IMG/VR virus record: IMGVR_UViG_3300008267_009052
Coordinates: 1-40,198 of that record
Strand: one strand, 5' to 3'
Length of the DNA stretch: 40,198 nt
From: a virus
How positions within the stretch are numbered: the stretch's first letter is position 1; each line of letters opens with the position of its first letter. The notes beneath the pieces were generated by a model. That model was not told the DNA's origin. It worked only from the letters and a program-made list of their open reading frames with translations, and ran no database searches. The translations under genes and the position numbers were made by a program. Of this stretch, positions 16-39,206 are shown piece by piece.

Positions 16-20
16 TATTG

Positions 21-406
21 AGGAGAAAGCGGGAGTTGAACCCGCGTCTTGAACATCTTGATAATTAAGGACTACACGCTTAGGTTAACATTTTCTAATG
101 TTCCAAAAATAGTTAATTCGTTCTTCACCATCGTGAATTTAACAACCAATGGATGACTCGATTTCGGGTTCAGTCAATTTTCCACCTTTGTAGAGACTTC
201 TGTTCCTAGGTTATATGTCCATCGACCCGTTAGTAGTTACTTAATCTTAAGCAGCCACAGTAGCATCTTCACGGATTAATCCGATAGTTGCCATTTTGTC
301 TAAAACGTTGCCGTCTATAAATCGATACCGTAGATTTAAGTGATAGATATCTTCTCACTGCGTGCCCCGAATGACCAACCATGCCAGTCGATTCCAATTT
401 TTCCCC
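21..406 (-). ncRNA. ssrA: Transfer-messenger RNA (tmRNA)
   Basis: Read on the minus strand, the RNA starts GGGGAAAAATTGGAATCGAC, the usual tmRNA 5' end, and finishes with the T-arm GACGCGGGTTCAACTCCCGC and acceptor strand TTTCTCC. The acceptor stem pairs GGGGAAA with TTTCTCC and keeps the G3-U wobble that alanyl-tRNA synthetase recognises. The base after the stem is U where bacterial tmRNAs usually have A, and CCA is not encoded. The RNA rescues stalled ribosomes by adding an encoded tag. Its length of about 386 nt fits one-piece bacterial tmRNAs. It is divergent from the gene at 502, with a host-type promoter upstream. The ends are inferred from pairing and could be off by one or two bases. 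Confidence 0.93.
247..312 (-). other. tmRNA tag-peptide reading frame
   Basis: The tag frame is set by TAGAC followed by the proposed resume codon GGC (312-310), matching the TAGTC-GCA arrangement of E. coli tmRNA. It encodes 21 residues, beginning GNVLDKMATI and ending REDATVAA, then TAA, with a second in-frame TAA two codons later. Bacterial tags usually end in LAA or ALAA; here the end is VAA and the tag is longer than the E. coli tag. The resume codon is inferred by analogy. The stop and C-terminal sequence are read directly. Confidence 0.75.
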
Positions 407-435
407 TTATATTGTTCAAAGAACGTTTATATCAA

Positions 436-466
436 CAAATATAATAAACAATTCAAATATATCAAA
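436..466 (-). promoter_or_regulatory. Bacteroidota-type promoter for the tmRNA
   Basis: On the minus strand TTTG (466-463) is followed after exactly 19 nt by TATATTTG (443-436). This matches the known Bacteroidota primary-sigma consensus TTTG-N19-21-TAnnTTTG. The start site would fall around 428-430, leaving a leader of about 24 nt before the mature tmRNA 5' end at 406. It differs from the TATTTATA boxes in front of most other genes, which suggests that the host polymerase transcribes the tmRNA. Confidence 0.65.
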
Positions 467-501: not shown

Positions 502-1887
502 ATGAGTTATACAGATTTAATCGATATATCGAATGGTGATAAAGAGGCTGCAGAATCTTTTGAATATGAAAATGATATTGTTTCGGATGTTAAGTTCTTT
601 GAGACAAAACCGGCAAAAAGCGTTGTTATTATACAGTTTGAAAATGATGATAAATTTTACGATCTATTTGATATGAATGATAGCGATAAATCATTTATTA
701 ACGGTGTTAACAGTTATTACGGTATAGATTTTGTTGACTCATATTGGTTAGATGAAGAATGGGATGAAGGTTATTTGGTACAACAAATAACCAATCAAGA
801 TTTAATTAAAGAAATAATTAAAAATATGGATCCAACATTCGATTTCACCAAGAATGACGATAATATGTATAAAAAAATATCATCAATGTTATATACACTT
901 AATGAACGTGAAGTTGATAATATTAAAGATACATTTAGAAACATCATGGATAGAAATGCCAATATTGCCGCAAAAAAACAAATTGATGATGATTTTTGTA
1001 ACGTTTTTAGTGATATTAAATTCATGGAAAAGAAATGTGGTGAACATAAATATTACACCACGGTTACCAATCTAATTAGATTATACGAATTAAGCGATAA
1101 TAAAGACCTTGATCTATACGAATTGATTAAGTTTTATGCCGAGCAAAAGGATCTTGGTGATAACTATTACTTTGAGGACACATACGATTTAATGTGGAGA
1201 AACTTCGATAATGATGAATTTAACGATAGCGTTCAAGGAGAACTAAAAAGTTTACTTGAATCATCCGAAGAATATTATGATGTATCACCAAATCCTGAAG
1301 AATTAAAAAAGATGATTGAAATGGTTGGTAAAATGGGAGGGTTTAATCAATGGATTGACTTACGTCCAAATAAAGAAAATAAAATAATGTTTTTTAGTAT
1401 TGATAATGAAACAAATTTTTTGAAGTTCGCAATAACAAAAAAAGGTAGTACGTGGGAATCTGAAACAAGAAGTGTTGATAACCTTGAAGATTTGAATAAT
1501 GTTATTTTCCAACCAGAATTATTTGAAAATAGAAATAAAAGAAATGAATTAATTATGGAACAAATAACAAGTGAGGAAATTGCAAATGAGTTCTATAATG
1601 AAAATAAAAATCTATTCAACGGAAAAGCAACACCAATTAGTTATTTAACCGACGCATTAAATAAATTCAACCAAAATCCAAAAAGACCAAAATTAAATTT
1701 GGATAAGTTAATCGAATTATCAAAAACAAAAAATCCATTGTTTAAGTTGGATTTCTTTTTTTTACAAAACGGAAGAATGGAGAAACCATTAACAACCGCA
1801 AACCTACAAGTTGGAAAAGATGTTAAATTTGTCTTAACAAGAATTCCAGGAAATAATTTTATTCCAGGTGTAAAAGTTAATTTCTAA
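502..1887 (+). CDS. Hypothetical protein, 461 aa
   Basis: I do not recognise this protein. It is acidic and hydrophilic, with no signal peptide, membrane segment or evident catalytic motif. The N-terminal third is rich in Asp and Glu, the middle looks helical, and the last 60 residues are more basic (LNLDKLIELSKTKNPLFKLD). The ATG at 502 follows a TATTTAT box by about 20 nt. It sits between the divergent tmRNA and a metallopeptidase gene 23 nt downstream, so it may share an operon with the peptidase. It could be a regulator or a virion component, but nothing in the sequence decides. Confidence 0.75.
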   Translation: MSYTDLIDISNGDKEAAESFEYENDIVSDVKFFETKPAKSVVIIQFENDDKFYDLFDMNDSDKSFINGVNSYYGIDFVDSYWLDEEWDEGYLVQQITNQDLIKEIIKNMDPTFDFTKNDDNMYKKISSMLYTLNEREVDNIKDTFRNIMDRNANIAAKKQIDDDFCNVFSDIKFMEKKCGEHKYYTTVTNLIRLYELSDNKDLDLYELIKFYAEQKDLGDNYYFEDTYDLMWRNFDNDEFNDSVQGELKSLLESSEEYYDVSPNPEELKKMIEMVGKMGGFNQWIDLRPNKENKIMFFSIDNETNFLKFAITKKGSTWESETRSVDNLEDLNNVIFQPELFENRNKRNELIMEQITSEEIANEFYNENKNLFNGKATPISYLTDALNKFNQNPKRPKLNLDKLIELSKTKNPLFKLDFFFLQNGRMEKPLTTANLQVGKDVKFVLTRIPGNNFIPGVKVNF

Positions 1888-1910: not shown

Positions 1911-2729
1911 ATGGAAAGAGATTATAATTTACTAAAAGAGGTTTTATCAGTACCTACTAAGACTTATAAGGAAGATCTAATGATAGGATTCCTAGTCAAC
2001 TGGTTAACCGAGAATGGTTATAATCATTATTTGGACGACCGTAAAAATATCTATGTAACAAAACAAACGGATGATATTGAATATTTCCCTTGTGTTGTGT
2101 CTCACATCGATACCGTCCACAATATTGATACTATTAATATTAAAGAAATGTTATTACCCAACGAACAGGGTGAACTCAAACCGTCCTTAAAGGCATATAA
2201 TGATGATGGTAAGGAAACTGGTATTGGTGGTGATGATAAGTGCGGCGTATTTGCTTGTCTTGAACTATTAAAAGAGTTACCAAACCTTAAGGTCGCATTC
2301 TTCGTATCCGAAGAAACAGGTTGTCATGGATCAAGAAATTCTGACCCCACCTTTTTTGAAAATGTTGGTTATGCAATACAATTCGACGCACCCGGTAATT
2401 CCATGGTTAGCGAATATTGTATGGGAACAAAATTATTTGATCGTAAGAGTGAATTCTTTGAGAAGTGTGATCAAGTATTGACCGAATCATTTAATGGTCG
2501 TAACGACTACCAATCACATCCATATACCGATGTTTATGCGTTAAAGAAGTTATATAACTTTTCATGTATTAACTTCGCAATAGGTTATTACGATTATCAT
2601 ACAAAACATGAATATGTTGTTGTTGAAGATGTTTATTCGGGGATTGAATCCGGTAAAAAAATGATTGAGACCCTAGGTTACGAGTTTTATAAATTCGAAG
2701 AAGGAAAAGGGGTTGTTTTTGGTTATTAA
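1911..2729 (+). CDS. M20/M28-type metallopeptidase (aminopeptidase-like)
   Basis: The protein looks like a co-catalytic di-zinc peptidase of the M20/M28/M42 group, close in style to tripeptidase T. Candidate metal ligands appear in the expected order: His65 in SHIDTVH, Asp108 in GIGGDDKCG, Glu134/Glu135 in FVSEETG, Asp159 in FDAPGN, and His230 or His233 near the C-terminus (YHTKHEY). At 272 aa it is shorter than full PepT (about 400), so the lid/dimerisation domain is probably reduced or absent. There is no signal peptide, so it should act in the cytoplasm on peptides, perhaps those released by Clp. TATATTTG at 1899-1906, just before the ATG, may be a host-type -7 element. A bidirectional terminator follows. 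Confidence 0.82.
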   Translation: MERDYNLLKEVLSVPTKTYKEDLMIGFLVNWLTENGYNHYLDDRKNIYVTKQTDDIEYFPCVVSHIDTVHNIDTINIKEMLLPNEQGELKPSLKAYNDDGKETGIGGDDKCGVFACLELLKELPNLKVAFFVSEETGCHGSRNSDPTFFENVGYAIQFDAPGNSMVSEYCMGTKLFDRKSEFFEKCDQVLTESFNGRNDYQSHPYTDVYALKKLYNFSCINFAIGYYDYHTKHEYVVVEDVYSGIESGKKMIETLGYEFYKFEEGKGVVFGY

Positions 2730-2766: not shown

Positions 2767-2795
2767 AAGGGGGATTCTATTCCCCCTTCTTTTTT
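2767..2795. terminator. Bidirectional terminator between peptidase and clp
   Basis: AAGGGGG and CCCCCTT pair around an 8-nt loop, with T-runs on both sides. It can end the plus-strand peptidase transcript and the minus-strand clp transcript. The clp stop codon (2779-2777) lies in the loop. Confidence 0.8.
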
Positions 2796-3397
2796 CTACC
2801 TCTTTTCTTAGGTTCTTCTTCTATTTTTGTGATTTTAACTTCGTTATTTTCACTTGACACTAGGTATTGAGTATTTTCGGACAATCTACCGGCCAATATT
2901 TCTTCGGATATATAATCTTCAACTTTGTCCTGTATTGCTCGTTTAAGTGGTCTTGCTCCGTACATTTCATCATACCCAACTTCTGATATCATATTAATTA
3001 ACGATTCGTCGAATGTGAAGAAATACTTGATTTTACCAATTCTTTCTTTTAACTTGGAAAATTCTAATCTCACGATTTTGTTTACGTCCTCTTTAACTAA
3101 TCTATTAAAGAAAATTACTTCATCGATTCGGTTTAAGAACTCAGGTGCGAAGAACTTTTGTAATTCCTTTTTAAGAACATCACGTTTTTGTTCTTCTTGA
3201 GCGTAACTTTTATTACTAGTTGTAAAACCAACACCTGTACCGAAATCCTGTAATTTTCTAACACCTATATTGGAAGTCATAATAATAACGCAATTCTTAA
3301 AGTTAATTTTCCTACCTAAACTATCGGTCATGTGACCATCATCCAGTACTTGTAATAACACTGAGAATATATCTTTATGAGCCTTTTCAACTTCCAT
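2777..3397 (-). CDS. ClpA/ClpC-type ATPase, C-terminal part of D2 (fragment)
   Basis: This is the end of a Hsp100/Clp unfoldase. It begins at [20 protein letters not shown] and continues through the sensor-1 region (VIIMTSNIG), the FAPEFLNRIDEVIFF segment and the sensor-2 motif GARPLKRAIQ, ending with a basic tail (KKRGRKKKGE). In intact relatives about 25 residues join PGY to this point, covering the D2 pore loop and the Walker B VLFDE. These are absent from the DNA and the frame changes, so this piece is in a different frame from the fragment at 3387-3839, with which it overlaps by 11 nt. The ATG at 3397 may be accidental. The gene looks decayed, or the assembly has lost a short stretch. 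Confidence 0.8.
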   Translation of the reverse strand: MEVEKAHKDIFSVLLQVLDDGHMTDSLGRKINFKNCVIIMTSNIGVRKLQDFGTGVGFTTSNKSYAQEEQKRDVLKKELQKFFAPEFLNRIDEVIFFNRLVKEDVNKIVRLEFSKLKERIGKIKYFFTFDESLINMISEVGYDEMYGARPLKRAIQDKVEDYISEEILAGRLSENTQYLVSSENNEVKITKIEEEPKKRGRKKKGE

Positions 3398-3839
3398 ACC
3401 CCGGCATAGAACCTATCAATCTAGAAATTGAATGTTTTTCCTGGTACTCAGACATGTCAACACGTATTAAAGAATCTTCATTCCCAAAGATTTGTTTTGC
3501 CAATTGTTTTGCTAAATATGTTTTACCAACACCGGTACTACCAAGGAAGATAAAAGACCCTATTGGTTTATTTGGATCTTTAATACCCAATCTATTTCTA
3601 CGTATTGACTTAGCAATTTTAGTAACAGCTTCAGACTGACCAATAACCTTGTCGTTTAATGAATTTTCCAATTCTGATAATTGTTTGGATTCATCTGAAT
3701 TTAATTTGGATACCGGTATTTTAGTCATATTAGATACAACATCATATACCAATTCGATTGGGATCTCACGTTTATTAGTATTTAATTCTTCTTCGAATTT
3801 CTTCTTCTCAGTATCTAATTTATTTGTTTTGTGCTTCAA
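3387..3839 (-). CDS. ClpA/ClpC-type ATPase, middle region and start of D2 (fragment)
   Basis: The fragment holds the end of the coiled-coil linker ([18 protein letters not shown]), the [19 protein letters not shown] region, and the D2 Walker A GSTGVGKT with [22 protein letters not shown]. It then hits a stop where relatives read PGYVGY. Its own start would be a TTG at 3839 inside the preceding frame, which ends at 3820. Compared with Bacteroidota ClpC, about 20 linker residues between EDLK and DTEKK are missing and the frame shifts +1. Taken with the next lesion, D2 would lack Walker B and its pore loop, so it should not hydrolyse ATP. Confidence 0.8.
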
Positions 3840-4854
3840 GTTTTAAGTCCTCAATCACTTTTGGCATTTTAACTTCAACTTGACTTCTAGCCCCAACTTC
3901 ATCTAAAATATCGAACGCCTTATCAGGAAATTCTCGGTCTGTTATATAACGTTCGGCTAATTCAACACACGTTACTAATACTTCATCGGTGTAAATAACT
4001 TTATGATAATTCTCGTACTTTTCTTTTGCATTTTTAAGAATTTGTAACGTCTCATCTTTTGAAGGAGAATCAACAACCACTTTTTGGAAACGTCTTTCTA
4101 ATGCACCGTCCTTTTCAAAGTTCTTCCTATATTCATCTAATGTTGTCGCTCCGACACATTGTATTTCACCCCTTGCTAATGCTGGTTTGAATATGTTTGA
4201 CGCATCCATTGTTCCTGAAGAATTTCCGGCTCCAACTATTGTATGGATTTCATCAATAAAAACAATAATGTTTGGATTGTTTTGCAATTCTTCGATGATC
4301 ACCTTCATTCGTTCTTCAAATTGACCACGGTATTTGGTCCCAGCAACGATTGAGGTCATATCTAATGATACGATTCTTTTGTCCATTAAATTTCTTGGAC
4401 ACTCACCATTAAGAATTTTGAAGGCAAGACCCTCAACTATAGCAGTTTTACCACAATTATGGGAAACAATTCCGTTGGAGATATATTTTCGTTCAGTATC
4501 CAATACTTCAAGGTCGTATGTATCTTCAATACCATATTCTTCATACGATATCACCTCAGATAATTCGTTATTTTCGCACCATACCATTTCACCTTCAGTG
4601 ATATTAGATAATGCGACCCAATACGCGTTATTTTCGAATTGTAAGGTTGGGTTTAACGAATTTTCCGTTACCTCAACAAAATGTGAATCCGATCCGACCA
4701 ATTCAAAACCATTATTTAATTTTATTTTGATACAGGTTTTATTCTTCTTTTTATAAAGATTGCCCACGGGTTTGTATCCGGATGGGGTGTTGATTGCGTA
4801 AGTACCGCCTTCAGACTCCGCCAACTCAAAAAATTCTTTAATCGTTAACTTCAT
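3820..4854 (-). CDS. Split-intein C-half fused to Clp ATPase D1 (C-extein)
   Basis: Residues 1-133 are the C-terminal half of a split intein ending [10 protein letters not shown]. Residue 134 is the +1 Cys, starting [11 protein letters not shown], the second half of the D1 Walker A motif. D1 follows, with Walker [26 protein letters not shown] and the arginine-finger region LERRFQKV. The natural partner is the N-half at 6057-6302; splicing would restore GEPG-CGKT in one chain. The ATG overlaps the stop of the upstream endonuclease (ATGA), so translation is probably coupled. The frame ends early at EAQNK in the middle-domain coiled coil, where relatives continue. Confidence 0.9.
4456..4854 (-). 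other. Split intein C-terminal fragment (IntC, 133 aa)
   Basis: The fragment contains intein-like beta segments (block B-like GSDSHFVEV), block F-like [19 protein letters not shown], and the terminal SHN followed by Cys. There is no endonuclease domain. With the 24-residue N-half the whole intein would be 157 aa, a mini-intein. The break lies just after block A, as in known atypically split inteins with N-halves of about 25 residues. Confidence 0.88.
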
Positions 4855-6017
4855 ATTATTGTTTTTAATTGTTTAATCAATTCATCAAAATTCGTTGATT
4901 GAATTAATTTTAATTTATTTTTTTTACAAAATAAAATCTTTTGACCCATTTTACTTAGGTATTGTTCCTGTGTTGAGTTTAATTTATTAAAGTTTTTACC
5001 ATCAAGCATACCAAAATACTCGATATATGTATTTTTAGAAGGGATGTAGAAGTCGTATTTATAATTACTATTAGGATACCTACCTTCATATATAAAATCC
5101 ACACCATTCTCAATTAAAAATAATGATAACCGATATTCTTTAACACTCTTGAACCGATTACCATTACTATAAATTGGTGTACCATAAGTTTGGTAATCCC
5201 ACTTAAATATGGTCTTTTCAACCATTAAATTTTTAATAGTGTCTCGGTCAGTGTTAAATTTAGAATGTATTAATCTACTATTAATATATGGTAATACATC
5301 CGAATATCTTTTAACATCAATTTCCTCTAAAATTTTGTCAACGAACGATTCTATTGTCTCTTCAATTAAATACTTTAAGATTATTTTTTTAGTCCCCTCA
5401 AGGAATGATGTTCTTTTCACCATAAAGTTATAATCGTTTGTTTTGTATGAATTCTTCCTCTTATTTATATCGTCAATATTGATATTATTTTTTAACGAAT
5501 TTACCCATTTTTTTTGACGTTCATTAAAAATTTCTAACCCCACATCTTCACCATATTTCTCAATACACTTATCAAGACTAAATGTTGATTGACGTTTTTT
5601 TAATTCTTCTTTAGCTTTTTCTTCATCATAACCTTTTGAAATCCAATATTCGATTCGACTAGTTGTCGAACTATAATATAGTTCAGGGTTTTTACTTTTC
5701 TTTTCCCTTAAAATATTTGAATTTGATTTTTGTTTTTTACTAATAAAATCATTAATATCAATATCATCCCACCCCATACATTCCAAAAATTTAGGGTTGT
5801 AGATTGTTTCGGGATAATCTAAAACCTTTTTTAATGTTGGCTTTACCATTTTGAATGGTAACGAGTCCGTGGTATCAATTTTTTCCTGTATTTCTTTTAA
5901 TTTGTTCTCAGGGAATTTCTTAAAAAATTTATAGAGTTTATTTTGAATAATAAACTTTTCAAAATCGAGGGGTGTTTGTATCACCCCCATTACTTTTCTA
6001 TTATAGGTTATGTTCAT
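4851..6017 (-). CDS. Vsr-like (EDxHD-type) homing endonuclease inside a fractured clp gene
   Basis: This is a free-standing endonuclease of 388 aa between the two halves of the clp gene. The C-terminal part has a Vsr-like nuclease core ([18 protein letters not shown] then TYIEYFGM). The middle holds the [19 protein letters not shown] and [15 protein letters not shown] segments common in phage homing endonucleases. The equivalent of the catalytic motif is divergent, so activity is uncertain. It has its own TATTTATA box at 6049-6056, 32 nt before the ATG, and its stop overlaps the IntC start. Placement between split-intein halves matches the published fractured-gene arrangement, where the nuclease presumably spreads the split-intein allele. 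Confidence 0.87.
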
Positions 6018-6048
6018 AGTTAATCAGGGTTTGGTAAATACCCATACC

Positions 6049-6056
6049 TATAAATA
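6049..6056 (-). promoter_or_regulatory. TATTTATA box before the homing endonuclease
   Basis: TGATATTTATA on the minus strand overlaps the IntN stop codon and lies about 32 nt before the endonuclease ATG. It could drive the endonuclease and IntC-Clp independently of the N-half. Confidence 0.45.
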
Positions 6057-6302
6057 TCACATTTCTTCGATTTTGTGAGTACCCTCATCTGAAATTTTAA
6101 CAACTTCGATGATTGTATCACCAATCACACATCCAGGCTCACCAATTATAATTGGGTTATTCTTCTTCCTTCTCGACAAGATTTGTGCAATTCTGTTTAT
6201 TTCTTGTTCTCTTCCTATAACAGGGTCTATTTTACCTTGTTCGGCCAATTTAATTAGGTCACGACTAAAGTTATCTAGAACTGGTGTTGATGAATCTAAA
6301 AA
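6057..6302 (-). CDS. Clp ATPase D1 N-extein fused to split-intein N-half (5' end unclear)
   Basis: The frame reads [18 protein letters not shown], then [19 protein letters not shown] and IIIGEPG, the standard start of a ClpA/ClpC D1. Cys1 of the intein (codon 6131-6129) and 23 more intein residues follow, then a stop. There is no good start codon: an ATG at 6308-6306 is followed at once by an in-frame TGA, and the only candidate inside is a TTG at 6248. The usual Clp N-domain is absent, and only about 90 nt separate this from the divergent hsp20 gene. Either the 5' end is damaged or a non-ATG start is used. Confidence 0.85.
6060..6131 (-). other. Split intein N-terminal fragment (IntN, 24 aa)
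   Basis: The fragment [17 protein letters not shown] and seven further residues form intein block A, and translation then stops. Cys1 directly follows GEPG, so the insertion point is inside the D1 P-loop. The short N-half marks an atypical split intein. Confidence 0.88.
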
Positions 6303-6396: not shown

Positions 6397-6894
6397 ATGA
6401 CAAAAACTTTAGAGAACTTATTAAACTACAACTTGGACACTGAGTTCAGAAACTTCGTTAACGAACTACGTTCAACAACTAATGATTGGGCTAATTGGAA
6501 TCCATCTACACCGTTTAATACGCCTCAACCAACAACTAACACTTGGTCTTTACCAACAACTAACAACTCAACTACTTGGAGAAATCCATTAACAAGAAAT
6601 TATAACTATAAAAGTTATACAACTGAGAATGGTTACGTTTTAACTTTTGATTTACCTGGTTATTCAAAAGAAAACTTAAACGTTGAAATCACTGACAACG
6701 TATTAACAATTGACGGTAGAAGAGAACATGGTTATGGTGAAAATACTTACACAACAACAATTAACGAACGAGTAACATTAAATACTTACGAGTACGATTC
6801 AACTAAAGTTACTGCTGAAGTTACTAATGGTGTGTTAGAGGTTACTTTACCAAAAAACAAAAAAGATAAGAAAAGAACATTAACTCTTATCTAA
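6397..6894 (+). CDS. Small heat-shock protein (Hsp20/alpha-crystallin family)
   Basis: The last 95 residues form an alpha-crystallin domain: YVLTFDLPGYSKENLNVEI, VLTIDGRRE, VTAEVTNGVLEVTLPK. The first 70 residues are a disordered N-terminal arm rich in Thr, Asn, Pro and Trp. The C-terminal IxI-like tail is LTLI. Small heat-shock proteins hold unfolding proteins without ATP and pass them to other chaperones. T4-like and cyanobacterial phages often carry one. At 165 aa it has the normal family length. It is divergent from clp and followed by a strong terminator, so it is monocistronic. Confidence 0.93.
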   Translation: MTKTLENLLNYNLDTEFRNFVNELRSTTNDWANWNPSTPFNTPQPTTNTWSLPTTNNSTTWRNPLTRNYNYKSYTTENGYVLTFDLPGYSKENLNVEITDNVLTIDGRREHGYGENTYTTTINERVTLNTYEYDSTKVTAEVTNGVLEVTLPKNKKDKKRTLTLI

Positions 6895-13892: not shown

Positions 13893-16673
13893 ATGGAAAA
13901 TAAAAATCAACTAACCATTTGGCAGAAGTTAACAAAAACATTTGGACCAAATTCATTATTGAATCAAGATTATCCCGTATATAAGTTTGATAAGAAGGAG
14001 TTACTAAAAACAAAATCGAAGGATGAGTATGAACATGAAAAACTTCAGGCTCAACAATCATTTTTCTTATCATCTCAATGGTCTAAGATTGAAACCAATT
14101 TATATAATCAAGCGGTATATTATGAACCAACAAGATTGGCTTCATTTTATGATTACGAAAGTATGGAATTTTGTATTGCGGGGGACACAAAAATCGCAAC
14201 ACCTGATGGTTTTGTAACAATTAAAGAATTAGCAGATAAGGGTCGTGACTACGAATTTATAACATATGCGTACGATCATAACCTTAAAAAGGTGGTCCCG
14301 GCAATGGCAAGAAATGCTCATTATACGAGAGATGAAATGACTTATAAAGTCACTTTTGATGATGGTTCTTTTATTATCACCACATGGGAACATCAATTGA
14401 TGAAAAGAGATGGTTCTTTTGAAAGGGTTATGAACTTAAAAGAAGGGGATTCAATGATGCCGTTCTATAGAAAATCATTTTACAATAATCAACGATACCA
14501 TTGGGTTTATACTTGTAATTCATCAGAAGGTCATCATGGTTGGATTTCAGAACACAATTTAATTGCTGAATGGTTTTACGAAACTAAAATCAATAAGGAC
14601 GAGGAGGTTCATCATATTGATTTTAACGGAAAGAACAACTTACCAAGTAATCTTCAGATAATGAAAATTGCCGAACATCGAGCATATCACGCTATACTAA
14701 ATAATGAAAAATTATGGGCTAACGAGGAATATAGGACTAAGATGATTGAGGTTGGGAGAAGAAAAGGTAAAATGAGTTGGGATGGTAAACGAAGTGGTAC
14801 TAATAATCCAGCTTATTTCCATCTACCATTTGACTTGTTAATTGAAACTGCGAGAAGTGAAAAAACGTTACGTAAAACAGCATCAAAATTAAAGGTTTCA
14901 ATAAGAAAAATTCAAAGAGAAATTGTTAATTCAGGTTATAATGATTGGATCACTTTTTTAGATGCGTATGGGATTGAAAAATCGGTATATTCGGTTGCAA
15001 GATGTAAAGGTGATGTACTAACATTAAACCATAAAATAGTTTCAATCGAACCTCACGAAGTTATTCCGGTTTACGATTTAACTGTTCCAGGTTATAAGAA
15101 TTTTGCGACTGATACTATATTCTCACACAATACTCCAGAAATCTCGGCAGCGTTAGACATTTATTCGGAAGAATCGACTACGGTGGATCAAAATGGCCAT
15201 ATGTTACAAATATATTCTGAATCAAAAAGAATTAAGAGTTTATTAGCCGATTTATTTAATAATACATTGGACGTAAATACTAACTTACCAATGTGGATAA
15301 GAAATTTGTCTAAATATGGTGATAATTTTGTATATCTTAAATTAGATTCTGAGAAAGGTGTTGTTGGATGTATGCAATTACCTAACGTTGAAATTGAACG
15401 ACTGGAGAGAGGTATGCCAGCCAAACCAATGAATGTTAATGAACCGGCTGAAAATAAAGGTTTAAGATTCGTATGGAAGGCTAAAGATATGGAATTCAAT
15501 GCTTGGGAAATCGCTCACTTTAGATTACTAGGTGACGATAGAAAATTACCATATGGAACATCAATGTTAGAAAAGGCTAGACGTATATGGAAACAATTAA
15601 TGTTGGCTGAAGATGCGATGTTAATTTATAGAACATCAAGAGCGCCTGAAAGAAGGGTATTTAAGGTGTTTGTGGGTAATATGGATGATAAAGATGTTGA
15701 GGCTTACGTTCAACGTGTTGCAAATAAATTCAAACGTGACCAAGTGGTGGATTCTAAAACGGGTAACGTGGATATGAGATTTAATCAAATGGCGGTAGAC
15801 CAAGATTACTTTATTCCTGTTCGTGACCCGGCAGCACCTAATCCAATTGATACGTTGGCTGGTGCACAGAATTTAGGTGAGATTGCCGATATTGAATATA
15901 TCCAAAAGAAACTTTTAACTGCATTACGTGTTCCAAAGGCATTCTTAGGTTTTGAGGAACCTGTAGGTGGTGGTAAAGATTTATCATTGATGGATATACG
16001 TTTTGCCAGAACAATCAATAGAATTCAAAAATGTGTAATATCTGAGTTAAATAAAATTGCTATCATTCATTTATTTTTATTAGGATTTGAAGATGAATTA
16101 AAAAACTTCACGTTAGGTTTGACAAATCCATCAAGTCAGGCCGATCTACTAAAAGTTGATATTTGGAAAGAGAAAATATTATTGTATAAAGATGCTGTTG
16201 CACCAATTCAAGATTCATTAGCTGCGGTATCCGCATCATGGGCTAAGAAACATATATTGGGATTCTCAGATGAGGAAATAAAACTTGATCTACAACAACA
16301 ACGAATTGAACGGGCGGTTGCTAGTGAATTAACTAACACACCGACAATTATAACTCACACAGGTATATTTGATAACTTAGATAAGTTATATGGCACCAAA
16401 TCAGGTGGAACTCAAACTGCGTCATCAGAATCAGTACCACCACCACCACCATCAGGGGGTATGGATATGGGCGAACCAATGATGCCACCACCTCCAGGAC
16501 CTGAACCAGGTGGTGAAGCGGGTGTAACGCCTGAATCATTCAGACCTAACAATTTGAAAATTCTTTTAGAAAGTGATAATTTAACTGAAGAAGATTCATT
16601 CATTGACTTATCAAAAGGGAAGAATTACTTGGGAGATATTGAAGATGAATTAAATAGACTTCTAAGGGACTAA
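13893..16673 (+). CDS. Portal protein (gp20-like) containing an HNH intein
   Basis: The host protein is a T4-like portal, the ring at the capsid vertex through which DNA passes. Recognisable parts are TPEISAALDIYSEEST, WEIAHFRLLGDDRKLPYGTSMLEKARRIWKQL, RAPERRVFKVFVG and LTALRVPKAFLGFEEPVGGGKDLS. Residues 94-413 are an intein, so the mature protein is about 606 aa, near the family size. The insertion falls in the conserved motif MEF-TPEIS, and the +1 residue is Thr. The C-terminal region has Pro-rich linkers (PPPPPSGG) and an acidic helix. Splicing is needed for a working portal. A terminator follows. Confidence 0.95.
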   Translation: MENKNQLTIWQKLTKTFGPNSLLNQDYPVYKFDKKELLKTKSKDEYEHEKLQAQQSFFLSSQWSKIETNLYNQAVYYEPTRLASFYDYESMEFCIAGDTKIATPDGFVTIKELADKGRDYEFITYAYDHNLKKVVPAMARNAHYTRDEMTYKVTFDDGSFIITTWEHQLMKRDGSFERVMNLKEGDSMMPFYRKSFYNNQRYHWVYTCNSSEGHHGWISEHNLIAEWFYETKINKDEEVHHIDFNGKNNLPSNLQIMKIAEHRAYHAILNNEKLWANEEYRTKMIEVGRRKGKMSWDGKRSGTNNPAYFHLPFDLLIETARSEKTLRKTASKLKVSIRKIQREIVNSGYNDWITFLDAYGIEKSVYSVARCKGDVLTLNHKIVSIEPHEVIPVYDLTVPGYKNFATDTIFSHNTPEISAALDIYSEESTTVDQNGHMLQIYSESKRIKSLLADLFNNTLDVNTNLPMWIRNLSKYGDNFVYLKLDSEKGVVGCMQLPNVEIERLERGMPAKPMNVNEPAENKGLRFVWKAKDMEFNAWEIAHFRLLGDDRKLPYGTSMLEKARRIWKQLMLAEDAMLIYRTSRAPERRVFKVFVGNMDDKDVEAYVQRVANKFKRDQVVDSKTGNVDMRFNQMAVDQDYFIPVRDPAAPNPIDTLAGAQNLGEIADIEYIQKKLLTALRVPKAFLGFEEPVGGGKDLSLMDIRFARTINRIQKCVISELNKIAIIHLFLLGFEDELKNFTLGLTNPSSQADLLKVDIWKEKILLYKDAVAPIQDSLAAVSASWAKKHILGFSDEEIKLDLQQQRIERAVASELTNTPTIITHTGIFDNLDKLYGTKSGGTQTASSESVPPPPPSGGMDMGEPMMPPPPGPEPGGEAGVTPESFRPNNLKILLESDNLTEEDSFIDLSKGKNYLGDIEDELNRLLRD
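14172..15131 (+). other. Intein in portal with HNH endonuclease domain (320 aa)
   Basis: The intein begins CIAGDTKIATPDGFVTIKEL (block A) and has a block B-like ITTWEHQLM. An HNH endonuclease core follows, EEVHHIDFNGKNNLPSNLQIM with EHRAYH. Then comes a helix-turn-helix-like stretch (LRKTASKLKVSIRKIQREI), and the end is VYDLTVPGYKNFATDTIFSHN before Thr. All splicing residues are present: Cys1, block B His, and the penultimate His with the terminal Asn. Most inteins of this size carry LAGLIDADG nucleases; the HNH type is less common. Confidence 0.93.
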
Positions 16674-23526: not shown

Positions 23527-25140
23527 TTATATTAACATTTCATATTTTAAGTTACCAGTATCCCAAATTTTATCGAATCCCTCCTCAAACATAATTTGAT
23601 TTTCGGTTTTATTAGGATCAAAACCCATTTTCACTAACTTATCTTTTCTAAAATTATATCTATGTAGTTTAATAGAATAATTTTTTGTGTAATGATAATT
23701 AGGTTTGGTAACACCTATATAATTAAAACCACTTTTACCATAAAAACAATGTTCATCGGATGGTGACCAATTTCGATCAGCGTAGGTTAATATTTTGGTT
23801 GGGTTATGATGTTTAATAACATACTTTAACAATTTACTAAAACCCCCAACAACATTAAGGTTACAATAACGATATAACTCAAGGGTATTATTTTCTTTAT
23901 TTTTATGACCTAATGATGAACGTAGATTTCCTAATGTTATTAGCGATACTAATTTATCATTATGTTTAAGTCCGTAATAGATTGTTGATTTGTCGTTACC
24001 TTGTAAATGGTGGGTATCTAAAAATAAACGTTTCTCTTCTTTAGTTATGTTAACTATTTCACAATTTCTAGCATAAATTTTATGTTCATTTTTATTTAAT
24101 AAATTTTTTAATCGTTCCTTGATAATATCTTTTTTTGAACTCCACTCATCCGAGAATATATGGATTAATTTAATATTTTTAGTTAAACATTTTTTTGTCT
24201 TATCTATGTGATAATTTTTATGTTTACCCCTTTTCTCGGAATGCCAATATAGACCATTATATTCTATTGCGATATTATGTGAGGGGATGAAAATATCTAA
24301 TTCAGTACCATTCAATACTGACTTATTATTAGTTAAATATTCAACACCAATTTCGGTCAAAAACTCACATATTTCATTTTCAGGGTTACTTCTAAATGGT
24401 ATGTTGGATTCGATGGTCATTAATCTATTAACGTATGATTCATTTAAGTTTTTTGATATTATTTCACCATATTTTAGTTTATATTCATCGGCGGTTATAT
24501 TGTGGGTTAATAAATGTGTATTAGATAATATCTTCATCTTTTCATTACATATTTTACACGTCACAAAATTATCTTCTATTGAAAGATGATCCTCCCTATA
24601 TTTGAGTTTTTTTAAGGTGTTGAAGTAGATTTCATAATCGGGGTATGATTCAATAAAGTCGGTTATTGTTGAATGGTTTGATTCAACATGTTTTGTTAGT
24701 GAACCCGTGATATTATTAACATCTGAAGTTTCCCACTCGCATATTGGGCATTTAATTGTTGGTGTATTAACAATTTCACATTTATTAAAGAATTGTGTGT
24801 GATAATATTCCTTATATTCTTTAAGATACATTCTTCTTTTGAACGCTGTTGGTATTTCAACATCTGGGTAACATTCTTTAATATGATCTGTTATCGCACC
24901 ACTTTTATTTTCATAATCGTTATACCTCTTATAACACTTTTTACATTCTAGTGAATGAGGTTCAATTTCAGGTTTAACGTTATTGTGGGAGTATTTTGTT
25001 TGAGCACCTTTTGAATTAATTGGTATGTTATTATCCATTAAAATTTTCTTCAATTTTAATTTACCAATCTTAAATTCTTTACATAGCGATTCCAAAGAAA
25101 TCCCTCCTTCGGAGTATCGTTTTATTATTTCAGTTTCCAT
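23527..25140 (-). CDS. Free-standing EDxHD-type homing endonuclease with zinc fingers, 537 aa
   Basis: The N-terminus is a helix-turn-helix (SLESLCKEFKIGKLKLKKIL). Three Cys/His zinc-finger-like units follow: C66-x2-C69 with H86/C90, C131-x2-C134 with H151/H156, and C195-x2-C198 with H209/H213. A Vsr-like nuclease core comes next (TELDIFIPSHNIAIEYNGLYWH, split here as E280-x-D282, E293 and H300). The C-terminal 200 residues (RNCEIVNITKEEKRLFLDTHHLQG, read from about 350) form a conserved domain seen in phage nucleases of this kind. It is convergent with the capsid gene and is probably a mobile gene targeting that locus. Confidence 0.85.
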   Translation of the reverse strand: METEIIKRYSEGGISLESLCKEFKIGKLKLKKILMDNNIPINSKGAQTKYSHNNVKPEIEPHSLECKKCYKRYNDYENKSGAITDHIKECYPDVEIPTAFKRRMYLKEYKEYYHTQFFNKCEIVNTPTIKCPICEWETSDVNNITGSLTKHVESNHSTITDFIESYPDYEIYFNTLKKLKYREDHLSIEDNFVTCKICNEKMKILSNTHLLTHNITADEYKLKYGEIISKNLNESYVNRLMTIESNIPFRSNPENEICEFLTEIGVEYLTNNKSVLNGTELDIFIPSHNIAIEYNGLYWHSEKRGKHKNYHIDKTKKCLTKNIKLIHIFSDEWSSKKDIIKERLKNLLNKNEHKIYARNCEIVNITKEEKRLFLDTHHLQGNDKSTIYYGLKHNDKLVSLITLGNLRSSLGHKNKENNTLELYRYCNLNVVGGFSKLLKYVIKHHNPTKILTYADRNWSPSDEHCFYGKSGFNYIGVTKPNYHYTKNYSIKLHRYNFRKDKLVKMGFDPNKTENQIMFEEGFDKIWDTGNLKYEMLI

Positions 25141-37793: not shown

Positions 37794-39206
37794 ATGAAAA
37801 ACGAATGGCGACAAGATGATATTGATTATTTAATTGAACATTATCCAAACACATCTAATAAAGAGTTGGCGGAAAAACTGGGAATTACTCTTGGGAGACT
37901 GCGGAATAAAACTAGGGGTCTTAACTTAAAGAAATCTAAAGAACATATTGAAAATTATAATAAAAGTCGAAGATTGACCATGGATGGTGAAATTGATTAC
38001 GATTACATTAAAAATATTGCGTTAAAATATACAAACAGGGGTGAATTCATTAACAATGATGGTAAATATTATCGATTGGCTAAAAAGAATGGTATTTTAG
38101 ATGATATATGTTCACATATGTTAGTTAAATCGTATAGTACCCCACAATTAATACTGAAACAAATAACCGAACGATTATTCAAAGAAGAATGTTTATATAA
38201 TAACAGAACTCTTATAAAGCCATACGAATTAGATTTGTATTTTGAAAATTTAGGTTTGGCATTTGAGTATGATGGAGCTCGTTGGCATTTAGAAGATGAT
38301 GTTAATAAAACTGAATTATGTAAACAACATGGTGTTGAGTTAATCACAATTGTTGAGACTTCAAGGGATTATGAAGAAGATGTTAAACAACAATTAATTG
38401 ATAACTTGAAGTTAATTAATAAAACAACAAAAAAGAAAATTAAAAAATCCGATATAAAAAACTTTGTTGTTAATCGTGAAAAATTATTACCGAGTATTGA
38501 CTATATTCGTGAAATTTGTCAATCATATGATGATTATACTAAATTTAAGATTGAACAAAAGTATATAAATAGATTATTAATTGATCGTAAACTTATTGTT
38601 GAGTTTACTAGTCACATGAAAATAAATAGAGTTAGATATGATCTTTTGGATATTGAAGATATTATTAATAAATATGATACATATTTCGACCTAGCAAAAA
38701 ATGAACCAAATTTGGTTCAATACCTAAGACGACGTAATAAACAATACTTATACGAACATTTACCAAAAAACAGGTCTTTTTGGTCGAATGAAGAAATTGT
38801 CGCCGAAATAGGTAAATACGAATATCTGGGCGATTTTAGAAAAGATAATAATAATTGTTATTCAGCTGCGATTAATAAAGGTTTATATAAAGAATTGAGT
38901 GTATTAAAGAAAAAAAGAAATACATATACGATTGATGAACTCAAAGAAATTATATCCAAATATAATAAATTTAAAGATTTTACGGATAATGAACCGGCCA
39001 TTTATTCATATTGTACTCGTCATGATTTACATCATCTTTTTGAACATCTACCTAAACGAAGATGGTGGTCACTTGAAGAATTGGAGGAATTGGTGGGTCA
39101 ATATAAAACATTAAAGGAATTTGCATCAGAACAACAAAATGCGTATACGGTAATTCGTAGACGATATAAACATCTTATAGATAAATTAATAAAATATTCA
39201 CATTAA
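37794..39206 (+). CDS. EDxHD-type endonuclease with repeated DNA-binding-like modules, 470 aa
   Basis: The N-terminal 45 residues are a SANT/HTH-like unit (WRQDDIDYLIEHYPNTSNKE). The nuclease core is at residues 140-200: PYELDLYFENLGLAFEYDGA then RWH, the EDxHD pattern, followed by a CKQHGVELITI strand. Around it are six copies of a module of about 38 residues (near 70, 236, 287, 332, 381 and 428), each with a helix, a Y-x3-x-F step and an N-x3-Y-x-x helix, ending in an L-x-x-L or EHLPK turn. Such modules probably read DNA. It resembles free-standing homing endonucleases and lies between convergent units. Confidence 0.8.
   Translation: MKNEWRQDDIDYLIEHYPNTSNKELAEKLGITLGRLRNKTRGLNLKKSKEHIENYNKSRRLTMDGEIDYDYIKNIALKYTNRGEFINNDGKYYRLAKKNGILDDICSHMLVKSYSTPQLILKQITERLFKEECLYNNRTLIKPYELDLYFENLGLAFEYDGARWHLEDDVNKTELCKQHGVELITIVETSRDYEEDVKQQLIDNLKLINKTTKKKIKKSDIKNFVVNREKLLPSIDYIREICQSYDDYTKFKIEQKYINRLLIDRKLIVEFTSHMKINRVRYDLLDIEDIINKYDTYFDLAKNEPNLVQYLRRRNKQYLYEHLPKNRSFWSNEEIVAEIGKYEYLGDFRKDNNNCYSAAINKGLYKELSVLKKKRNTYTIDELKEIISKYNKFKDFTDNEPAIYSYCTRHDLHHLFEHLPKRRWWSLEELEELVGQYKTLKEFASEQQNAYTVIRRRYKHLIDKLIKYSH

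Follow-up and report, generated by a model that had tools for sequence, protein, structure and literature searches.

Among the closest described counterparts of the locus analyzed here is the tmRNA-SmpB system of Bacteroidota (Rfam family RF00023), whose tags are exemplified by GENNYALAA. Long tags have precedents in those of the Mycoplasma type, which are reportedly read by Lon and go along with a changed protease specificity. Phage-borne tmRNAs are known from mycobacteriophages Bxz1 and Wildcat, Bacillus phage G, and methylophage Melnitz (PMC4131195, PMC7474061, PMC9004378), and huge phages are reported to carry tmRNA together with SmpB (PMC7162821). The tmRNA described below resembles them in being carried by a lytic-type phage and, as in the huge phages, in being accompanied by SmpB in some records, whereas for known phage tmRNAs we found neither a shared long tag family nor a linkage to ClpC described. 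A search of the open-access literature for the present tag family, or for its linkage to ClpC, yielded no description either, which does not establish priority. The two huge-phage tmRNAs that we compared carry other tags than this clade: that of LR756511.1 (locus L480, 1501-1855 (-)) encodes the ordinary tag ANPEFAMAA, and in that of LR756508.1 (locus L481, 1501-1947 (+), 72 bits) a frame opened by GGC gives the 36-residue tag GVNNADYESAGFTAEDFAQMDGESLYHGSERKPAAV followed by a stop, which, if the frame is right, is a second, unrelated long phage tag. A separate short 5' and 3' tmRNA-like match was also seen in LR756511.1 (L484) and in LR756508.1 (L483).

The window, i.e. the whole stretch of DNA that was analyzed, comprises the 40,198 bases of a virus record and encodes portal and major head proteins of the T4-like kind. 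When it was searched with the Rfam tmRNA covariance model, a full-length match spanning model positions 1-374 was obtained (74.1 bits against a gathering score of 47, E = 4e-27; cf. Table 1), which bears out the claim of an earlier note on this DNA that a phage tmRNA is encoded here. ARAGORN missed the tmRNA of the window; of the nine phage relatives on which the same tool was run, it called a tag in four. As the whole tmRNA has an unremarkable minimum free energy (z = -0.82), its structure is taken from the covariance model. Searches of phage records by blastn with the window tmRNA and by tblastn with two tags gave no match, and such short queries make weak tests. Relatives were represented by records found via the capsid protein or via the M20 peptidase encoded near the tmRNA, which were then searched for tmRNA. 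It was present in 12 of 49 capsid-related and in 42 of 50 M20-peptidase-related records, many of them short fragments, and the resulting comparison set held 55 tmRNAs, that of the window and 54 from related phages.

Table 1 Features of the tmRNA locus and its neighborhood (positions in the window)
Feature	Position	Strand	Remark
tmRNA (ssrA) gene, one-piece	18..406	-	Full-length match to RF00023
Tag reading frame GGC...TAA, GNVLDKMATIGLIREDATVAA and stop	247..312	-	Same frame in 55/55 tmRNAs, including the window
BoxA-like leader element GTTCTTTGA	416..424	-	Just 5' of the mature 5' end
Bacteroidota-type promoter TTTG-N19-TATATTTG	436..466	-	-7 element upstream of 41/55 tmRNAs
M20-family peptidase	1911..2729	+	PF01546 above cut-off; syntenic neighbor used to find relatives
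ClpC-like unfoldase, C-terminal part	2777..4455	-	Keeps the GVGF loop; breaks near 3825 and 3395
ClpC N-terminal part, then intein N-half at GEPG^CGKT and stop	6057..6293	-	Presumed start codon upstream of 6293

The G3-U70 pair of the acceptor stem, an identity element for alanine, had been reported as kept, and it was indeed found in the window and in all 55 tmRNAs compared. Judged by sequence, the phage tmRNA would be charged with alanine and be active in infected cells. The base after the acceptor stem is U in the window, as the earlier note had read it, but this holds for one tmRNA of 55 and does not stand as a feature of the group: the discriminator at position 73 is A in the other 54. 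An A73 is commonly present in tmRNA, and it is not a criterion of Rfam membership. Since the U73 of the window lies about 21 nt from the start of the contig, a contig-end error is possible.

The tag of the window consists of 21 residues followed by TAA, with the resume codon GGC at position 312, and its sequence and coordinates had been given correctly from the start. All 55 tmRNAs encode a tag of 21-22 residues that follows one pattern, GNVLxKMxxxGLIRxxE..VVA, in 32 distinct versions. Within it G11 and L12 are invariant (55/55), K6 and R14 occur in 53 of 55, and A closes every tag. The tags end in VVA (23), TVA (9), AVA (7), VAA (6), NVA (4), VTA (4), or SVA (2), that is, in VA, AA, or TA throughout and never in LAA or MAA (0/55). 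The VAA end, which the earlier note had stressed, is thus found in few tags even of this clade, most of which end in VVA, TVA, or AVA; VAA ends exist in cyanobacterial tags as well. What stands out is the long tag conserved as a whole rather than its final residues.

The resume frame was checked in three ways, and the covariance model, ARAGORN (with an identical frame in four relatives), and codon conservation agree on a single one. The resume codon is mostly GGC or GGA among the phages, and the base at -4 from it is A in 55/55, which we take to be the counterpart of the critical A86 in E. coli tmRNA. When the distinct 21-codon tags were compared, 63% of single-base codon differences were synonymous in the tag frame versus 27% expected, while the other two frames showed no comparable excess (25% versus 22% and 11% versus 16% expected). 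Mean differences at codon positions 1, 2, and 3 were 0.33, 0.20, and 0.51, and those of the flanks 0.50 and 0.65. These comparisons indicate that the tag reading frame is under purifying selection. That the tag might be conserved for RNA structure only was also considered, and was rejected in view of the synonymous excess in the tag frame.

Like the Bacteroidota tmRNA, the phage gene combines a one-piece fold, the G3-U70 pair, a resume codon that is mostly GGC or GGA, and a promoter and leader of host type. The tags differ, those of the phages combining GNVLxKMxxxGLIR with a VA-type end over 21-22 residues, in contrast to 8-10 residues and LAA or MAA in the hosts. tmRNA was detected at the set threshold in 115 of 118 Bacteroidota genomes, and 111 loci were read. 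None of these host tags is long: most have 8-10 residues, the start being uncertain in a few, and nearly all end in LAA or MAA, 109 of them having been read by a motif-based caller that favors such ends; the remaining two, read by eye, are AENNYAYAA and GDNFGYRMAV. A phage-type tag was found in none of the 111, so the possibility raised earlier that the host carries the same tag finds no support in this sample, and the phage tag is distinct from the host tags read, among which that of the actual host may be missing. Furthermore, an IUPAC DNA pattern covering 42 of the 55 phage tags (the other 13 fell outside the search) matched one stretch in 84,980 bacterial and archaeal genomes, with no tmRNA there, and at least 120 viral contigs. 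Among the matches listed, 80 viral loci were read, and 78 of them encode a tag of 21-22 residues followed by a stop; the other two are cut at the contig end (L268) or belong to an unrelated open frame (L294). The pattern match in Marseilla (L241), which reads GNILLKMQFFGLLRW and a stop, was rejected as no tmRNA is present there; the genome's own tag is GENNYALAA (L362).

Since the phage tags lack the LAA or MAA end of the sampled host tags, they might merely free ribosomes and spare the tagged products from host proteases. We consider such a protecting role improbable: a tag of this kind need only lack a signal, whereas so strongly conserved a long motif hints at a binding partner, and a ClpC gene is linked to the tmRNA (see below). 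The same long, highly conserved motif with its invariant GL would also suit a tag with a non-degradative purpose, e.g. one that directs stalled products to a place or a partner within the infected cell. No receptor candidate turned up for such a role, however, and the genes linked to the tmRNA have to do with unfolding and proteolysis of proteins; we consider this explanation very improbable.

The host-type promoter proposed for the window proved to be as described and is above chance in the clade. TAnnTTTG, which we take to be the -7 element of Bacteroidota promoters, occurs upstream of 41 of 55 tmRNAs within 60 nt of their 5' end, compared with 2.7 in shuffles, and the complete TTTG-N17-21-TAnnTTTG arrangement in 27 of 55, compared with 0.14. 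By raw count, a similar boxA-like element lies in the leader of 37 of the 55 phage tmRNAs, and the ssrA leaders of several Bacteroidota have one as well. The -7 element and this leader element are an indirect indication of Bacteroidota as the probable hosts of the clade.

Each of the 30 tmRNA-bearing records tested encodes a ClpB_D2-small domain, at a distance from the tmRNA of 2.1-6.1 kb with a median of 2.5 kb. In the relatives the gene is intact, and its product, mostly 670-690 residues long, has two AAA domains with P-loops and a ClpP-docking (V/I)GF loop, of a type absent from ClpB; GxGF stands between TSN and FxPEFxNR in all 73 distinct intact sequences. The best match among solved structures was ClpC of S. 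aureus (PDB 6em8), to which the phage protein aligns end to end over both AAA domains and the middle region, from ClpC residue 150 onward, with the ClpP-docking GF loop in common. Unlike the S. aureus protein, that of the phages has about 680 residues and no N-domain, and Pfam detected no Clp N-domain in the ClpC of four relatives. Because this domain is missing, we speak of a ClpC-like protein and not of a full ClpC. Several isolate phage records from Gram-positive hosts, among them OR844998.1 and OR846592.1, also contain a ClpC match of about 50% identity; these records may be contaminating bacterial contigs.

From the gene neighborhood we infer that the phage ClpC recognizes the tag, and the loss of the adaptor-binding domain would fit direct reading of a private tag. 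The gene could instead serve general unfolding or capsid-related work. The suggestion in the earlier note that stalled products go to a different protease has become more plausible with a ClpC-like unfoldase beside the tmRNA in 30 of 30 records, although it is the proximity of the genes that is observed and the reading of the tag that is deduced from it. Neither a phage Lon nor an SspB-type tag adaptor was found in these 30 records. The precedent of Mycoplasma and its relatives raises the question of whether the host's Lon reads the phage tag. Both kinds of tag are long, but their sequences are unrelated, and ClpC rather than Lon accompanies the phage tmRNA, so we hold a role of host Lon to be very improbable.

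SmpB with a full C-terminal tail is encoded in 6 of 30 records, in five of them about 1.3 kb or less from the tmRNA, and ClpP, with the catalytic-triad residues in place by eye, in 5 of 30. Three genomes of 282-318 kb (G005, G061, and G070) contain tmRNA, SmpB, ClpC, and ClpP all together. Most records, many of which are fragments, contain neither SmpB nor ClpP; this also holds for two records of 229 and 272 kb, which may themselves be incomplete. Both genes are absent from the window. The absence of a phage ClpP from most records would be expected if the phage gene were simply an extra tmRNA copy that boosts rescue, its products being degraded by host ClpXP, a ClpAP-type protease, or ClpC, and the long tag being a quirk of the lineage in which only the small hydrophobic end matters. 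Small hydrophobic residues and a terminal A close the tag in 55/55, and the VAA ends of cyanobacterial tags agree with this as well. On the other hand, the residues that are conserved best (G11, L12, K6, and R14) belong to the central part of the tag and not to its end, host tags end in LAA or MAA, and clpC is linked in 30 of 30 records; we therefore regard an extra copy as rather unlikely, though deserving of serious consideration.

The clpC copy of the window departs from this picture. Compared with a relative, about 29 and 24 residues are missing, with a frame break at each site (cf. Table 1), while the sequence is otherwise 73-85% identical; the deletions may reflect decay or an assembly fault. 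In addition, the first P-loop, which is uninterrupted in most relatives, is broken up by a split intein. The fractured region spans 4456-6131 (-), and between the two intein halves, which were read from the sequence, lies a freestanding endonuclease-like ORF of 388 residues (6017-4851 (-)), an arrangement that we take to be a fractured gene with a split intein. Considering the clpC deletions with their frame breaks and U73, the copy of the window may function poorly, or there may be errors in the contig, and the functional argument thus rests on the clade and not on this contig alone. As to other genes of the window, a HSP20-family small heat-shock protein (6397-6894 (+)), a second protein-quality gene nearby, adjoins clpC, and a 461-residue protein without family match (502-1887 (+)) is divergent from the tmRNA; an IMG/VR scan found no relatives of the latter. 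The portal-like protein (926 residues, 13893-16673 (+)) matches HNH endonucleases at about residues 115-282, which suggests that a mobile element, e.g. an intein, has been inserted, and two further ORFs related to homing or HNH endonucleases are located at 23527-25140 (-) and 37794-39206 (+).

Taking everything together, we favor, with a probability of about 0.5, a trans-translation system of the phage's own in which the tag hands products to a phage ClpC(P). A tailed T4-like phage, probably of Bacteroidota, would transcribe its own tmRNA from a host-type promoter, and the tmRNA would be charged with alanine. Together with SmpB, the phage's own in some relatives and presumably the host's in the others, it would enter stalled ribosomes, where the 21-22 residue tag would be appended to the stalled products. 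A dedicated ClpC-like unfoldase of the phage, devoid of the adaptor-binding N-domain and with the ClpP-docking loop kept, would then read the first 14 residues of the tag (GNVLxKMxxxGLIR) and its V-A end and would deliver the tagged products to ClpP of the phage or the host instead of the host's short-tag route. Its working would resemble bacterial trans-translation, the difference being the tag and, probably, where the products go.

More tentatively, at somewhat less than even odds, these genes may form a private quality-control line of a widespread clade of Bacteroidota phages, running alongside the trans-translation and ClpXP of the host but separate from them, with its own tmRNA, its own tag code, and an N-domain-less ClpC tuned to the tag, to which the largest genomes add SmpB and ClpP. 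The tag and the unfoldase are candidates for a tag-protease pair whose evolution was separate from that of the LAA system of bacteria. A specific pair would provide an orthogonal degradation tag for Bacteroidota, and the conserved 14-residue part poses the question of how long tags are recognized by Clp unfoldases. The benefit of a tmRNA to a phage also becomes testable, be it only the rescue of ribosomes, the removal of stalled phage products, or the redirecting of host products.
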